Shown one piece after another: positions 7,046 through 15,859 of a stretch of 33,973 bases of DNA (positions are counted from its first letter, which is position 1; each line of letters opens with the position of its first letter). The notes beneath the pieces are model-generated. The model had not been told where the DNA came from and did not search any database. It saw only the letters and a list, made by a program, of their open reading frames with translations. Location: the NCBI GenBank assembly GCA_009692015.1, contig SIAB01000009.1, positions 1-33,973 of the forward strand, in the 5' to 3' direction. Made by a program: the position numbers and the translations under genes. Source of the stretch: Phycisphaerales bacterium (GTDB lineage Bacteria > Planctomycetota > Phycisphaerae > Phycisphaerales > SM1A02).

Positions 7046-7175
7046 GAGCCGGGTCTTGCGCAGCACACGGATCTTCAACTCAATGCACCATCGTTGGCTC
7101 GATGCCGCACGCGAACTCTTTGCGTGATGCACCAGCTTGTCATTTCGCTTCCATTCGATAACAGAGGAATTCACT

Positions 7176-7850
7176 ATCACCCAATTCAATCGTCGTCCCC
7201 CCTTCCGCGATTCACGAGACTCTGGTCCTCGGATCAATGATCGCATCCGTGTGACCCCCGTTCGTTTGCTTGATGCCGAAGGCACGATGGTCGGTGTTGT
7301 TGAACTCGAAGAGGCCAAGCGGCTCGCCGCCGTTGCTGGACTCGACCTGGTCGAAATCGCTGCGGATTCGCGACCTCCCGTGGTGCGCATCATGGACTTT
7401 GGCAAGTTCAAGTACGAACAGGCCAAGAAGGAAAAGCAGCAGAAGACCAAGTCCAAGGCTGGTGAAATGAAGGAAGTCCGGCTCGGGCGATCCATGAAGA
7501 TCGATCCGCACGATGTGGAGATTCGCGTCAATCAGGCCCGGCAGTTTCTGATGGAGGGCTATCGCGTGGTGTTCGTGCAGAACTTCCGCGGTCGCGAGTT
7601 GACCTACCGAAACAAGGGCGACGAACGCATGGAGCACATCGCCCAGCAACTCGCCGACATCGGTCGCGTCGAAATGACCCCCCGCCTCAACGGCAAGCGT
7701 ATGTCGATGATCCTCGTCCCCGATCGATCCAAGATCGAATCGGCGAAGAAGAAGTCTTCTTCGGGATCCCCCAAGGCATCCAAAGCAATAGCGCCGGTCG
7801 AAGCAGACGCCAGCGTTCCTGCGCCGCCGCCCGCAGCCGCGAACGCCTAA
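7176..7850 (+). CDS. infC: Translation initiation factor IF-3, probable ATC start
   Basis: ITQFNRRPPFRDSRDSGPRINDRIRVTPVRLLDAEGTMVGVVELEEAKRLAAVAGLDLVEIA...PPVVRIMDFGKFKYEQ. AGAGGA at 7163-7168 sits about 7 nt before ATC 7176; the tracked TTG at 7137 has no evident SD. Confidence 0.93.
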   Translation: MTQFNRRPPFRDSRDSGPRINDRIRVTPVRLLDAEGTMVGVVELEEAKRLAAVAGLDLVEIAADSRPPVVRIMDFGKFKYEQAKKEKQQKTKSKAGEMKEVRLGRSMKIDPHDVEIRVNQARQFLMEGYRVVFVQNFRGRELTYRNKGDERMEHIAQQLADIGRVEMTPRLNGKRMSMILVPDRSKIESAKKKSSSGSPKASKAIAPVEADASVPAPPPAAANA

Positions 7851-7862
7851 GCGAGAAAAGAC

Positions 7863-7905
7863 ACCGGTGGATGCCCCGCGTTGCGGGCGCCACCGGTTTT
7901 TCTTT
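7863..7905 (+). terminator. Rho-independent terminator after infC
   Basis: ACCGGTGG...CCACCGGT outer stem with inner GCCCCGC/GCGGGC pairing (one bulge), followed by TTTTTCTTT. Confidence 0.85.
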
Positions 7906-7913
7906 CCCGGCTC

Positions 7914-7942
7914 TTGACTTTTTATTCACTCGACTGCATAAT
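7914..7942 (+). promoter_or_regulatory. Sigma70-like promoter for argR/arg operon
   Basis: TTGACT (7914-7919), 17-nt spacer, CATAAT (7937-7942). Confidence 0.75.
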
Positions 7943-7948
7943 AATGCA
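7935..7948 (+). promoter_or_regulatory. Candidate ARG box (ArgR operator) overlapping the -10 element
   Basis: TGCATAATAATGCA is a perfect inverted repeat around an AATA core with the 14-nt architecture of TGAAT-N4-ATTCA, with a symmetric A->C / T->G substitution. Confidence 0.55.
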
Positions 7949-7950
7949 CC

Positions 7951-8454
7951 ATGCTTCCCAAAGCCCAGCGCCATCGTCAGATCATCAAGTTGATCGAATC
8001 GGGGCGAATCTCCAGTCAGGCAGACCTCGCTCAACATCTTGGGCGGGTTGGGATCGCCACAACCCAAACCACGCTCTCGCGGGATCTTGCTGAGATTGGC
8101 GTCGTCAAGAGTGCGAGCGGCTATCACCTGCCCGCCACGGGTACGGACTCTGCGTCGATCGACCGAAGCGCCGTGCTCGCCTTGACCGTGCGCCGCTTGA
8201 TGCTGGAGATATCAATTGGCGGAACGCAAGCAATCTTGCACACTCCGCCAGGGCAAGCCAGCGCACTCGCAGTTGAAATCGATCGAGCCGATCTCTCCGG
8301 GGTGCTGGGCACGATCGCCGGAGATGACTGCATCTTCATTGCCTGCACCACCGCCCGCGCGGCACGCATGGTTGTCCGCAAACTGCAGTCGCTCGCCCAG
8401 ATGCCTTCGCCTACCGCGCCATCGCCGCGGCGGCGCTCGCCCGCTCATTCTTGA
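7951..8454 (+). CDS. argR: Arginine repressor
   Basis: N-terminal winged helix (IIKLIESGRISSQADLAQHLGRVGIATTQTTLSRDLAEIGVVK) and C-terminal HTPPGQASALAVEIDRADLSGVLGTIAGDDCIFIAC. Confidence 0.94.
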   Translation: MLPKAQRHRQIIKLIESGRISSQADLAQHLGRVGIATTQTTLSRDLAEIGVVKSASGYHLPATGTDSASIDRSAVLALTVRRLMLEISIGGTQAILHTPPGQASALAVEIDRADLSGVLGTIAGDDCIFIACTTARAARMVVRKLQSLAQMPSPTAPSPRRRSPAHS

Positions 8455-9554
8455 GAGAAACCGTGAATCACCACACTCCATCCACGCGTTCATCCGTTGC
8501 GGCCTGTCGTGCTGTCGTGGTTGGCGCCGCGGGATACTCGGGGGCGGAGGTGGTTGGCATCTTGCTGCGACACCCAGGCGTCGAGGTGGTTGGGCTCTTC
8601 GGGTCCGCAGCACGCAGCGAGAACCCCCAGCGATTCGACCAGATTTTCCCGCGGTTTCGAGGATGGACCGACCTCAAGGTTCACGCCGCGTCGATCGAGG
8701 CGATCTGCGCGCTCAAGCCTGACGCCGTCTTCTTGGCTGTTCCGCACGAGGCGAGTCACGATCTTGCGCCGGCACTCCTCGCCGCTGGCATCACCCTGCT
8801 CGATCTCTCGGCTGCCTTTCGATTGCGAGATCCCGACGACTATCCCAAGCACTATGGTTTCGCCCACGCCCATCCTGCCTGGTTGCAATCGCGGGTCTAC
8901 GGGATCGCCGAACTCAACCGCGATGCGATCCGCCGAGCGCAACTCATCGCCGTGCCGGGCTGCTATCCCACAAGCGTGATTCTTCCCATGCGACCGCTCT
9001 GGGATGCCGGAGTGCTGGAAGCAGCACCAATCATCGTTGACAGCACCAGCGGCGTGAGTGGCGCGGGCCGCGCGCTCGCGCTGAAGAGTCTCTTCTGCGA
9101 GGTAAGCCAACAGCCCTACGGGGTTTTCAAGCATCGACACCAACCCGAGATCGCCCAGGAGGTCGGCAGCGATGTGATTTTCACTCCGCACTTGGGACCA
9201 TTCGACCGCGGGATTCTCTCGACCATTCACGCGACGCTGAAGCATGGTGTCGGCGAGTCCGCCATTCGTCAAATTCTCTCGGCGCGTTACAACTGCGAGC
9301 CATTTGTCACCATTCTCGACGCTGGCGCCTGGCCATCCGTTGCGGCAGTTTCCGGAAGCAATCGCTGTGACATCCAGTTGGCCGTTGATGAATCGCGACG
9401 ACACCTCATCGTCTGCAGCGCCATTGACAATCTCATCAAAGGTGCCGCTGGACAAGCTGTGCAGTGCCTCAACATCCGCTTTGGGCTGGGCGAAACAACG
9501 GGCTTTGCTCTGCCGCGTGCCGTGCCGTCGGTTCCACAGGAGGTGCTCTCGTGA
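8451..9554 (+). CDS. argC: N-acetyl-gamma-glutamyl-phosphate reductase
   Basis: VVVGAAGYSGAEVVGILLRHPG..., AVPGCYPTSVILPM, DSTSGVSGAGR, NLIKGAAGQAVQ. Start TTG 8451 (overlapping the argR stop) or GTG 8463. Confidence 0.96.
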   Translation: MRETVNHHTPSTRSSVAACRAVVVGAAGYSGAEVVGILLRHPGVEVVGLFGSAARSENPQRFDQIFPRFRGWTDLKVHAASIEAICALKPDAVFLAVPHEASHDLAPALLAAGITLLDLSAAFRLRDPDDYPKHYGFAHAHPAWLQSRVYGIAELNRDAIRRAQLIAVPGCYPTSVILPMRPLWDAGVLEAAPIIVDSTSGVSGAGRALALKSLFCEVSQQPYGVFKHRHQPEIAQEVGSDVIFTPHLGPFDRGILSTIHATLKHGVGESAIRQILSARYNCEPFVTILDAGAWPSVAAVSGSNRCDIQLAVDESRRHLIVCSAIDNLIKGAAGQAVQCLNIRFGLGETTGFALPRAVPSVPQEVLS

Positions 9555-10393
9555 GGAATCCGACCAAGGCTCCGACCAAGCTCGTTGTCAAATTGGGTGG
9601 CGCACTTCTCGACGATGCGCGCGCTCTCTCCGCGACGATCGCCGCTGTCTCGTCGCTCCACCATCGAAAACCCGGCTCGGTCATCATTGCCCACGGTGGC
9701 GGAAGCACCGTCGACCGCCATCTTGCGCGGCTCGGGATGAAGAGTGAAAAACGCGATGGCATCCGGATCACTCCGCCCGATCAGATGGCCGAGATTTCGG
9801 CCGTGCTCAATGGGCAGGTCAATGCGACCCTCGTCGCCCAGCTTCTCGCCCAAGGGTGCAGCGCGGTGGGGCTCTCGCTGGCCGATGGATTCACGACCAC
9901 CGCGTCAGTCGCCACGCACTATCCCTTTGATCCGGGATGCGTGGGCGAGATCACAAACGGGAACGCGCGGCTCCTCGACACACTCCTCGGCGCTGGCTTT
10001 CTTCCAGTGCTTTCGAGCGTCGCCGTCGACGGCGATGGCCATCTCCTGAATGTAAATGCCGACGATGCCGCCGCGGCACTCGCCAAACTGGTCCGCGCAA
10101 CAGGGCTGGTCTTTCTGACCGATGTACCCGGGGTGCGCGACGGCAGCGGCGCGGTCATCGAAGAGCTCAACCGATCCTCGGCAGAGCAACTGATTCTCGA
10201 TGGCACGATCCGCGCCGGCATGATTCCGAAAGTTCGCAGCGCGATCGCAGCAGCAGAAGCAACTGGGATCTCGGTGATCATCGCGAGTTGGAATGAGCCC
10301 AATCTCTTGGATCGCATCGCCAGCGGCGAGCGGGTCGGCAGTACGATTCTCCCCCCTTGCTGCGAAGAACGAGTCACGCTCAGCACACCATGA
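9551..10393 (+). CDS. argB: Acetylglutamate kinase
   Basis: KLVVKLGGALLDD, VIIAHGGGSTVDRHL, NVNADDAAAALAKLV, FLTDVPGV, GMIPKVRSAIAA. GTG start gives a GTGA overlap with argC. Confidence 0.95.
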   Translation: MRNPTKAPTKLVVKLGGALLDDARALSATIAAVSSLHHRKPGSVIIAHGGGSTVDRHLARLGMKSEKRDGIRITPPDQMAEISAVLNGQVNATLVAQLLAQGCSAVGLSLADGFTTTASVATHYPFDPGCVGEITNGNARLLDTLLGAGFLPVLSSVAVDGDGHLLNVNADDAAAALAKLVRATGLVFLTDVPGVRDGSGAVIEELNRSSAEQLILDGTIRAGMIPKVRSAIAAAEATGISVIIASWNEPNLLDRIASGERVGSTILPPCCEERVTLSTP

Positions 10394-11376
10394 CCTCCCC
10401 CGCATCCATGCTGCTCACGAGTGACTTGCTCCAGGTGATCGATCTCTCGGCCACAGAGATCACCCAGCTCTTTGGGATTGCATCTCGGTTGAAGACCGAT
10501 TACCGCCCCTTCGCTGGATCGTTGGCGCAGCGATCGTTGGTCATGCTCTTTGAGAAGCCATCGCTGCGAACGCGGGTCTCATTCGAGCTGGGCTTTCAGA
10601 AACTCGGTGGAGGCGTGGTCTTCCTCGACCACCAATCCTCGCCAATCGGCGGGCGCGAAACAGTCGAGGACTATGCCCACAATCTTTCCAGGTGGGCAGA
10701 TGTGATCGCGATTCGATGTCGATCGCACGAACTGCTGGCGCGCTTCGCAGCCGCCAGTTCAGTTCCGGTCATCAACGCCCTCAGCGACCTACATCACCCC
10801 TGTCAAGCGCTCGCCGACATTTTTACGCTCGTTGAGTCTGGAATACGACCGGAAGAACTCCATCTCGCCTGGGTTGGCGACGGCAACAATGTGTGCCTCT
10901 CACTCATTGAAGCGGTTGCGACGCTGGGAGGTCGGATGACAGTCATCACCCCGACCGCGTGCCGCCCAGCAGCCGACGCGCTGCGCATCGCTGACGCCCG
11001 GGCCTTTCGAAGCGGTGCGCGCATCGTGTGCACGGACGACCTCGCCGCCGTCGCGGGAGCCGACGCGATCTACACCGATGTCTGGGTCTCCATGGGCGAA
11101 GAATCGCGCGCAGCGGAGAAGACGGCGATGCTCACCCCCTACCGGGTCGACGCCGCACTGATGCGGCGCGCTGGAGCGAAGACTCGCTTCATGCACTGCT
11201 TGCCCGCCAAACGTGGCGAAGAGGTTGCCGCAGAAGTCATCGATTCGCCTGCCTCGATCGTCTTCGATCAGGCCGAGAATCGCATGCACATCCAGAATGC
11301 GCTCATGCTGGCACTGCTTCGCAGCGACCTTGCACCGCAGGATCGACCCGCTCCATCCGTGGCCGCTCACCCATGA
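10390..11376 (+). CDS. argF: Ornithine carbamoyltransferase
   Basis: FEKPSLRTRVSFELG, HPCQALAD, WVGDGNNVCLSL, TDVWVSMGEE, FMHCLPAKRGEEV; ATGA overlap with argB. Confidence 0.93.
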   Translation: MTSPASMLLTSDLLQVIDLSATEITQLFGIASRLKTDYRPFAGSLAQRSLVMLFEKPSLRTRVSFELGFQKLGGGVVFLDHQSSPIGGRETVEDYAHNLSRWADVIAIRCRSHELLARFAAASSVPVINALSDLHHPCQALADIFTLVESGIRPEELHLAWVGDGNNVCLSLIEAVATLGGRMTVITPTACRPAADALRIADARAFRSGARIVCTDDLAAVAGADAIYTDVWVSMGEESRAAEKTAMLTPYRVDAALMRRAGAKTRFMHCLPAKRGEEVAAEVIDSPASIVFDQAENRMHIQNALMLALLRSDLAPQDRPAPSVAAHP

Positions 11377-11430
11377 CATCCGCGAATTCACTCGCCTGTT
11401 TTTTCACTACTGCACCTTGAAGGAGTTCTC

Positions 11431-12735
11431 ATGAAAGAGTCATTCAAACCCCGTCGTGTTTCGCTCGCATACTCGGGAGGGCTCGACACCTCCTGCATCA
11501 TTCCCTGGCTGGTTGAAACCTACGGCTGTGAAGTGATCGCTGTCGTTGCCGATGTCGGTCAAGGCGCGCGCGAACTCGAGGGGATCGAAGAGAAGGCGAT
11601 TCGATCGGGGGCTACGAAGTGCATCATCAAGGACTTGCGCCGAGATTTCCTCGAGGAGTTCGCCTATCCGATGGCGATCACCGGGGCGGTCTATGAGGGT
11701 CGGTACTTGCTCGGCACATCCATTGCCCGGCCGATCATCGCTCGCGCGCAAGTCGAAGTCGCGCTCGAAACTGGCTGCGACGCTCTCAGCCACGGCTGCA
11801 CCGGCAAGGGCAACGACCAAGTTCGCTTCGAGTTCACCTTCGCTGCGCTCGCGCCGCACCTTCCGGTCATCGCCCCCTGGCGACTCTGGAATCTCAAGAG
11901 CCGCGAGCAGATGCTCGACTATCTCAAGGTGCGATCAATCCCCTGCGCGGCGAGCGCCGAAAAGATCTACTCGCGCGATGCCAACATCTGGCACATCTCG
12001 CACGAAGGGGGCGACCTCGAAGATCCATGGAAGGCACCACCCGACGATGTCTGGATGCTCACCTGCGATCCAGCCCGTGCTCCCGCGAGCGGTGCAGAAC
12101 TCACGCTCTCTTTCCGCAGTGGATTCCCCACAGCGATCGATGGCGTTCCCATGGATTCAGTCACGATCCTGGAAACGCTCAACCGAATTGGTGGCGAGCA
12201 GGGCGTCGGGCGCGTTGACTTGGTCGAGAACAGACTTGTGGGGATGAAGAGTCGCGGTGCGTACGAAACGCCAGGCGGCACGATCCTGATGGAAGCACTC
12301 CGTGGACTTGAGCAACTCTGCTACGACCGCGAGACGACGCAGTGGCGCCAACGGCTGGCACTCGACTTTGCCCGGATCGTCTACGAAGGCACCTGGTTCA
12401 CCCCGGTGCGCGAATCGCTCTGGGAAAGCGCCAAGCATGCCGCCCAGGTTCTCGACGGCGATGTTCGCGTCCGCTTGTTCAAGGGCACGGCGACAATTTC
12501 TGGACGGCGCAGTCCCAACTCGCTCTACAGCGAAGCCTTTGCAACCTTTGGTGCCGATGAGGTCTATGACCAGACTCACGCCGAGGGATTCATCCGCCTC
12601 TTCTCCCTTCCAACACGAATCCGTGCATTGAAAGGTGCATCGACTGCGGCGCTTCAGTCGTCTCGAACGACGCGCAGTCCAGCTGCGCCGCAGTCCACTT
12701 CGCAGCCCGCACCACAAGGCAGCACATGGGAGTGA
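11431..12735 (+). CDS. argG: Argininosuccinate synthase
   Basis: [37 protein letters not shown]..., [23 protein letters not shown] upstream of ATG. Confidence 0.96.
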
Positions 12736-14627
12736 TCTGGGCAGGTCGGGCAACGGAGCCGGCGGATCCACTCTTTCGCCAATTCAACGATTCGCTTTCA
12801 TTCGACCGCACCCTGGTGCGAGAAGACATCGAGGGAAGCGTTGGATGGGCACGCGCATTGGAACGCGCCAAGGTTCTCACCGCAGAAGAGGCTGGCTCGC
12901 TCATCGATGCGCTCGGCGAGGTCTTGCGTCATGCGATCGAGAGTCCATCCGCACTGGCCGAAGCTGCGGATGAAGACATCCACTCGTGGGTGGAACGCGA
13001 ACTTGTTGCCCGCGTTGGATCACTCGGCAAGAAATTGCACACCGGACGAAGTCGAAATGATCAGGTGGCTACCGACCTTCGCCTCTGGACCATCAAGCAA
13101 ATCGCCCGGCGCGCCAGCGAGATTGAGGGTTGCATTCAGAGCCTGCTTTCCCTCGCCGAGCGCGAGCGCGGCACTGTTTTTCCGGGCTACACGCACCTGC
13201 AGCGGGCGCAGCCGATTCTCTTTGGACACTGGTGCATGGCCTATGTCGAAATGCTCTTGCGAGATCGCGAGCGATTCAATGACGCTGCGATTCGCGCCTC
13301 GATGTGTCCGCTCGGCTCTGGCGCGCTCGCTGGAACCGCCTATCCGATCGATCGCGAGCAGTTGGCTCGGGATCTGGGATTTTCGGCGCCGACCGCAAAC
13401 TCGCTTGACGCCGTCAGCGACCGAGACTTCGTGGTCGAAACGCTCTCGGCAACCGCGCTGGCATCGATCCATCTCTCGCGACTGGCTGAGGACTTGATCT
13501 TCTACACCACCGGAGAAGCCGGTCTCATCACGCTTGGCGATTCCGTCACCAGCGGATCGAGTCTGATGCCGCAGAAGAAAAATCCAGACGCGCTCGAACT
13601 TATTCGCGGAAAGTCTGGTCGGCAGATCGGAAACCTCGTCAACATACTCACCGTGCTCAAAGGACTCCCTCTCGCCTACAACAAAGATTTGCAGGAAGAC
13701 AAGGAGCCACTCTTCGATGCGATGGAGCATCTGTCGTTGAGCCTGCGCATGATCCCTCCCGTCCTCGATGGAATGACGATCGACCGACAGCGCGCCCGCA
13801 TCGCCGCCGAGGGGGGTTATTCAAATGCCACAGAGCTTGCTGATTATCTCGTGCATCAAGGGGTTCCCTTCCGTGATGCCCACCACTCGGTTGGTCGACT
13901 CGTGCGCGAAGCAATCCGCGAGTCAAAGCCGCTCGAAGCACTTTCCGTAGAGCAAATGCAAGCAATCGCTCCCGGCGTTCGCGACGATGTGTATGTCGCG
14001 CTCACGGTCGACCGGGCAGTTGCCAAGCGCGATGTCCATGGCGGGACCGCGCCCGCCCAGGTTGCAGGATCGGTCGCGGCGGCGCGGCGGAATCTCGGTC
14101 GTGGATCACAGGATGCCAAGGCGTCTCACGCTGGCGACTCGCTGATCACGATTCGTGAGGCACACATCAACGACCTGGATGCCATTTGCGACATCGTCGC
14201 GCACTGGGCTCGGGCCGGCGAGCATCTGCCCCGTTCTCGCGAAGAGATCCTCGAATCACTCTCTGAGTTCGCGGTTGCCGTTGAAGGTCAAGAGGTTGTC
14301 GGCTGCGGTTCACTCTGGATCTACACCCCGCAACTCGCCGAAATCAGATCGCTCGGCGTGATCCCAAGTCGAAAGGGTGGCGGACTCGGTTCGACGCTCA
14401 CCCGCTACTTCGTCGACTGGGCCGCGGACTTGGGGATCCCCAAAGTGTTCGTGCTGACCCGCGCCCCAGACTTCTTCGCGCGTTGTGGTTTCAAGACAGT
14501 CAGCGTGAGCGTCCTTCCGGAAAAGGTTCTCAAGGACTGCGCAAAATGTCCACGAAACACGGCCTGCGACGAGGTTGCGATGACGCTCGACACGGGAGCG
14601 GCTCCGCTCGCGGATCACGGATCATGA
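12726..14627 (+). CDS. argH: Argininosuccinate lyase fused to a C-terminal GNAT N-acetyltransferase (ArgA-like) domain
   Basis: Residues ~1-460 ArgH ([37 protein letters not shown]); C-terminal [21 protein letters not shown]...[28 protein letters not shown]...FFARCGF...[18 protein letters not shown] is a short ArgA/NAGS-type GNAT. Confidence 0.93.
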
Positions 14628-15859
14628 CAACTGCGGTCGCGCCGATCACCCCTGCGCACACCACCGCGCCGCCCTGGCCACAGGGATTCATCTCTGCTGG
14701 TATCGCCGCGGGGATCAAGAAGGACGGCTCAACCGACCTAGCCCTGTTGACCAGCGACGGTCGCGGCAGCGGCGAACTCTCCGCAGCCGCAGTCTTCACC
14801 AGGAACCTCATTGTGGCGGCACCCATCCAACTCTCGCGCGCCAACCTCGCGGCGTCAGGTGGTCGGGTCCGCGCGCTCCTCATCAATTCGGGGTGTGCCA
14901 ATGCAGCGACGGGCGACGATGGCATGCTGCGCGCCGTGCAATCAACAACCGCGCTCGCAGAGCGGCTCGGAATCGACTCTCGATCAGTCCTCGTGAACTC
15001 AACGGGGGTCATCGGAGTTGCGCTTCCCATTGATCGCATCAAAGGCGCACTCGACGCACTGATCGCAGCGCAACAACCTGGCTCTTGTGAGTCTTTCGCT
15101 CGCGCGATCATGACCACCGACACGCGGCCAAAGTGGTCGAGCCGCTCAATTCACTGGATGGACGGCGTCACCCAGCGCAATTGCACCGTGACCGGAGTTG
15201 TGAAAGGTGCGGGCATGATCCATCCAAACATGGCCACGATGATCGCGGTCATTGCCACCGATGCCACGCTCGAACCAGACGAACTGCACGGCCATCTGCG
15301 CTCTGCAGTTGACTGCAGCTTTCACCGAATCTCAGTCGACGGCGACACCAGCACCAATGACAGTGTCTTCGCCCTCGCGTCGAATCGCGCCGGCACCGCG
15401 CCAACGGCACAACTCGCAGAGGCCTTCGAGCAGGTCGGACAAGAACTTGCCCTCATGGTTGTCCGTGATGGCGAGGGATCCGAACGCGGCATCGAAGTGC
15501 GCGTCACGGGCGCGCGAACTCAGGGCGACGCCCTGCAGGTTGCACGAACTGTGGCGATGAGCTTGCTGGTGCGCACCGCGGTCACCGGTGGCGATCCAAA
15601 CTGGGGAAGAATCCTCGCCGCCGCGGGTCGCGCTGGAATTCCGTTCGACCCAAACCGCCTGCGCGTGGGCGCGGGAGGCATCGCCCTCTTCGCCGATGGA
15701 TCACCAACCCATGCCGAAATCGGGGCGGTTCGAGCCGCGTTCACCGCTGACTGCGTTCGTATCGAACTCGACCTTGCAATGGGAGAAGCGCGCGATCTCT
15801 TCTGGTCCTGCGGACTCACCAAGCGGTATGTCGAAATCAACGCCGACTACACCACCTAG
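14624..15859 (+). CDS. argJ: Glutamate N-acetyltransferase / amino-acid acetyltransferase
   Basis: GFISAGIAAGIKKDGSTDLALL, NSGCANAATGDDG, NSTGVIGVALP, GVVKGAGMIHPNMATMIAVIATDA, GDPNWGRILAAAGRAG; ATGA overlap with argH. Confidence 0.95.
   Translation: MTTAVAPITPAHTTAPPWPQGFISAGIAAGIKKDGSTDLALLTSDGRGSGELSAAAVFTRNLIVAAPIQLSRANLAASGGRVRALLINSGCANAATGDDGMLRAVQSTTALAERLGIDSRSVLVNSTGVIGVALPIDRIKGALDALIAAQQPGSCESFARAIMTTDTRPKWSSRSIHWMDGVTQRNCTVTGVVKGAGMIHPNMATMIAVIATDATLEPDELHGHLRSAVDCSFHRISVDGDTSTNDSVFALASNRAGTAPTAQLAEAFEQVGQELALMVVRDGEGSERGIEVRVTGARTQGDALQVARTVAMSLLVRTAVTGGDPNWGRILAAAGRAGIPFDPNRLRVGAGGIALFADGSPTHAEIGAVRAAFTADCVRIELDLAMGEARDLFWSCGLTKRYVEINADYTT

Follow-up and report, generated by a model that had tools for sequence, protein, structure and literature searches.

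The analysis of the region upstream of argR reveals that positions 7913–7950 of the window (the whole stretch of DNA that was analysed, 33,973 nucleotides from a Phycisphaerales bacterium) very probably form a canonical ArgR operator, through which ArgR would repress both argR and argCBFGHJ, with a near-leaderless transcript being made on derepression. The operator covers both TTGACT and CATAAT, lies upstream of argR-argCBFGHJ and ends at the start codon (Table 1). Since the operator overlies both promoter elements, ArgR most likely switches off argR itself together with the whole operon. In the proposed mechanism, an arginine-loaded ArgR hexamer would bind the four half-sites of 7913–7950 and, once bound, would cover the −35 and −10 elements and exclude RNA polymerase, argR and the collinear argCBFGHJ being repressed together. 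When arginine falls, ArgR would leave and the transcript would start 0–3 nt from the argR ATG, a predicted position that makes translation of argR from a leaderless or near-leaderless mRNA probable.

Profile searches place argR at the head of a collinear operon, argR-argC-argB-argF-argG-argHA-argJ, extending from 7951 to 15859. The operon contains both argJ and an argHA fusion, in which a GNAT domain is found at the C-terminus of ArgH (12726–14627), so that acetylglutamate synthase activity may be encoded twice. Between infC and the argR promoter lies a hairpin with a folding energy of −28.3 kcal/mol (z −3.4) that is probably a terminator parting the two; it is absent from the output of a simple consensus terminator scan. 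The encoded ArgR scores over the cut-off for the N-terminal domain PF01316 and reaches 109.9 with TIGR01529, under the curated cut-off of 130.45 (E 1e-31). Its best structure match is M. tuberculosis ArgR 3ere (7e-19; entry 3ere/3lap), and this actinobacterial protein is also its closest solved relative by sequence. In the alignment of the two proteins the C-terminal, arginine-binding GTIAGDD motif is kept, and the TQxTLSRDL helix of the M. tuberculosis protein is present as well. Solved ArgR proteins align from residue 3–4 of the ORF and relatives from residue 1; since homology begins within the first four residues, the ATG at 7951, as assigned in an earlier reading of this DNA made from the sequence only, is the right argR start.

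Table 1. Features of the argR control region and of the arginine operon (positions in the window).
Feature	Position	Strand	Evidence and remarks
infC	7137–7850		stop at 7850, 5′ of the argR promoter
Probable intrinsic terminator	7863–7905	+	GC-rich hairpin with a T-rich stretch after it, 3′ of infC
ARG box 1, 18 bp	7913–7930	+	CTTGACTTTTTATTCACT; core TGACT-TTTT-ATTCA 7915–7928 (arms TGACT 7915–7919 and ATTCA 7924–7928, spacer TTTT), over the −35
−35 hexamer TTGACT	7914–7919	+	overlaps left half-site of ARG box 1
ARG box 2, 18 bp	7933–7950	+	ACTGCATAATAATGCACC; core TGCAT-AATA-ATGCA 7935–7948 (arms TGCAT 7935–7939 and ATGCA 7944–7948, spacer AATA), over the −10
−10 hexamer CATAAT	7937–7942	+	within ARG box 2
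Predicted transcription start	7948–7951	+	leader of 0–3 nt; standard −10 to start spacing
argR, arginine repressor, 167 aa	7951–8454	+	PF01316; TIGR01529, 1e-31; M. tuberculosis ArgR 3ere
argC	8451–9554	+	TIGR01850, 1.5e-114; overlaps argR stop codon
argB	9464–10393	+	TIGR00761, 4.5e-59; start codon uncertain
argF, ornithine carbamoyltransferase	10357–11376	+	NF001986, 7.6e-109; TIGR00658, 2e-99; start codon uncertain
argG	11431–12735	+	NF001770, 2.6e-167
argH with C-terminal GNAT N-acetyltransferase domain (argHA fusion)	12726–14627	+	NF008964, 6.7e-247
argJ	14483–15859	+	NF003802, 1.4e-129; start codon uncertain

Every placement in the window was scored at 16 positions against wnTGAATwwwwATTCAnw, the classical ARG-box consensus of E. 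coli and Bacillus, which is independent of the planctomycete clade. Box 1 (14/16) and box 2 (13/16) are the best and the second best single boxes in the 34-kb window. They are separated by 2 bp (20 bp from centre to centre), and as a pair they rank first among 135,742 placements; their joint score, not attained in any of 5000 local Markov shuffles, is far above what chance would give. The −35 imposes a constraint on the left half of box 1, TGACT, which deviates from the ARG-box consensus. The sequence-only reading had proposed a single operator site on the −10, consisting of a perfect inverted repeat at 7935–7948. The box on the −10 is indeed real and TGCAT-N4-ATGCA is present, but the 5-bp arms enclose a non-palindromic AATA instead of forming a perfect 14-nt palindrome, and the operator is made of two tandem ARG boxes, the one on the −35 having been missed. 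An isolated inverted repeat with 5-bp arms is weak evidence by itself. The genome contains the pattern TGNATNNNNATNCA 20 times; as these are mostly GC-rich, and all others inspected lie under a longer ORF, they give no further targets, and such single-box matches were rejected as extra operators. Two additional TGCATAATNATKCD matches in one relative (L062 and L063 in G002) were likewise discarded, being located within long ORFs.

The TTGACT-N17-CATAAT promoter described in the sequence-only reading is recovered as the sole sigma-70-like promoter in 7700–8100 (0.1 expected in shuffles), with a 17-nt spacer and a −10 that ends 8 nt before the argR ATG; no Shine-Dalgarno sequence is seen before this ATG in 7935–7950. 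The gap between the −10 and the start codon measures 6–9 nt in 18 of the 19 genus members, and 8 nt in most, which makes a leaderless or near-leaderless argR mRNA likely and agrees with the geometry proposed earlier. For this part of the reading alone there is an alternative, namely that argR has an ordinary 5′ leader transcribed from an undetected upstream promoter, 7914–7942 then being an operator or a minor promoter. The argR transcription start is a predicted one, and in some relatives (L023, L182, L183 and L191) the block is found about 80–110 nt before argR, i.e. with a leader present. Against this alternative, which we regard as unlikely, stand the single promoter-like site with a probable terminator just upstream of it, the lack of a Shine-Dalgarno sequence and the short gap kept throughout nearly all of the genus. 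Those four longer-leader loci indicate that leaderlessness is not required for operator control; as judged from the spacings, the leaderless state appears to be common in relatives, not universal.

Genus-wide, nine near-consensus promoters have a gap of 5–8 nt to an ATG and one has a gap of 17–20 nt (12 nt longer), the latter being one of the same nine loci, recounted. All nine leaderless-spaced promoters open from the ATG into closed reading frames of 63–407 aa (candidate genes). Three of them, in different genomes (L164, L166 and L168), precede lipoprotein-like ORFs of 63–67 aa (MKKLLPILVCSACAILVSCG and similar) and perhaps represent a conserved leaderless small gene. Planctomycetes are reported to have few Shine-Dalgarno genes and to show sequence biases compatible with initiation that is leaderless or depends on S1, their non-Shine-Dalgarno initiation having been predicted from sequence statistics (PMC5397173). 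A literature search of titles and abstracts yielded no paper with a leaderless argR as its subject; the present analysis supports leaderless initiation for a regulated planctomycete operon.

The upstream regions of argR from 19 genus genomes were collected by tblastn anchoring, the rows being picked by ArgR homology alone. All 19 contain TTGAC, the spacer sequence TTATKCA and TGCATAAT, with ATKC or ATCC preceding the start codon, and the flanks of the operator are unconserved; TTATKCA deviates by one base in one genome and is otherwise invariant. Box 2 reads TGCATAATNATKC in 16 of these genomes and TGCATAATCATCC in the other three. The sequence-only reading had named conservation of its palindrome in relatives as a test, and at argR the pair of boxes is kept in 19/19 genomes, so that the test did not refute the proposed operator. 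A second alignment used rows picked by the box-2 motif, so that only the columns outside this motif are independent. The −35 is TTGAC in 26 of 27 aligned operators and TTGCAT in the remaining one. Separately retrieved loci from other genera of the family have TTGCAT as their −35 and TGCAT-N4-ATGCA as box 1, which reads TGCATAATCATGCA in L187, L188, L192 and L198 and TGCATGTTTATGCA in L201, with TGTATATTCATGC as box 2. That the genera with the weaker −35 show this form of box 1 confirms the two-box reading; promoter consensus seems to be traded for operator consensus there, as expected for an ArgR half-site. ARG boxes and promoter hexamers thus appear co-optimised: either TTGACT is kept and the outer half-site is weak, or TTGCAT is adopted and the box is perfect. 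These observations bear on the possibility that the block is merely the strong sigma-70 promoter of a leaderless gene, its inverted repeats being by-products of −35 and −10 conservation. TTGAC and CATAAT at a 17-nt spacing do fit the sigma-70 hexamers; however, conservation is as strong in TTATKCA, which does not belong to any promoter element, and in the bases surrounding the −10 as in the hexamers themselves, the block is confined to argR, and relatives give up the −35 consensus for a perfect box, all of which renders this explanation very improbable.

A sequence-only model, R1, trained on some of these operator sites, finds the argR operator in 19/19 genus genomes. Its further matches there, bar one weak match in G002 (E 0.44), are opposite-strand reads of the argR operator; such matches arise from its inner repeat TTATKCA-N6-TGCATAA and were rejected as new sites. 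No second operator at comparable R1 score was found in the 19 genomes, R1 being a model that would overlook isolated boxes and those that have diverged strongly. Among 181 family genomes, 121 have PF01316 and 54 an R1 match (E up to 0.05), and 53 of these 54 matches precede the argR domain by 1–109 nt on its own strand. As some of them served to train R1, the evidence lies in their location and not in the E-value. R1 gives no match in more than half of the family genomes that have argR, the model being narrow and the filters strict, and several of these genomes show diverged versions of the operator. The one match outside argR (G067:C47:12476-12507, E 2e-4) occurs in a genome without PF01316; it may be a chance match or a relic, or argR may be missing from the assembly. 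The operator is present at all six argR-argC loci tested and at none of the seven tested argC loci that lack an adjacent argR. This tight association with argR, together with the match to the classical consensus and the 20-bp pitch, leaves hardly any probability, the least among the alternatives, for an operator that serves another arginine or nitrogen regulator while ArgR acts elsewhere, even if ArgR is assigned as the regulator from the ARG-box match and proximity. Eight family members have no detectable argR (G020, G022, G024–G027, G031 and G036); in seven of them a match to this ArgC is missing too, and in G027 the only match is distant. It seems that repressor and pathway are retained or lost jointly, which suggests that arginine auxotrophs exist in the family.

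The preferred reading therefore remains that of an ArgR operator placed on the argR promoter, a proposal of the sequence-only reading that the consensus score and the conservation at argR sustain. Autoregulation of argR and of the downstream arg operon, predicted at the same time, is also supported; the operator covers the only recognisable argR promoter and is kept in relatives. Control from a single two-box operator is the best-supported form of it because the anatomy is the same as that of E. coli. Hexameric arginine-bound E. coli ArgR occupies two promoter-overlapping ARG boxes and sterically excludes RNA polymerase (PMC6640053). As a genetic switch the operator is well conserved but of an ordinary kind; two somewhat unusual traits are its compact layout and the failure to find a second operator in any of the 19 genomes. 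A more tentative idea, to which we give somewhat less than even chances, is that the ArgR regulon of this lineage has shrunk to a single operator, in which hexamers, four half-sites and a leaderless start share about 38 bp, so that repressor and pathway would form a self-contained module that is retained or lost as a unit. Our search of titles and abstracts found no study of a planctomycete ArgR regulon or operator; a clear, conserved ArgR operator is now available for Planctomycetota, a phylum for which that search returned none.

Comparison with known systems places this operator within a common family. The boxes of the E. coli argR and S. clavuligerus argC operators are 2 bp apart and overlap the promoter (PMC3293853), and the present operator resembles that of E. 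coli argR in its two 18-bp boxes, their 2-bp separation, the promoter overlap and the predicted autoregulation of the repressor. It differs in that argR here heads the whole arginine biosynthesis operon, in its half-sites (TGCAT/ATKCA versus TGAAT/ATTCA in E. coli) and in the predicted near-leaderless mRNA. Bacillus AhrC/ArgR operators belong to the same consensus family, TGAAT-N4-ATTCA; in B. subtilis argC, however, the boxes are 11 bp apart and a further single-box operator lies inside the gene (PMC3293853), whereas the boxes here are 2 bp apart and no further box within the gene was seen. The arg operators of Streptomyces clavuligerus and S. coelicolor (argC, argG and argH) likewise have tandem boxes with a 20-bp pitch and the core TGCAT-N4-ATGCA. 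As this core is also that of the ArgR-bound S. coelicolor argH box AB.SCO1570_1, TCATGCATGAGTATGCAGAA (PMC5839063, Table 1), the TGCAT/ATGCA arms are not lineage-specific, contrary to what the sequence-only reading had supposed. Streptomyces has several such operators and a wide ArgR regulon (PMC3293853, PMC5839063), in contrast to the one operator found per genome here.
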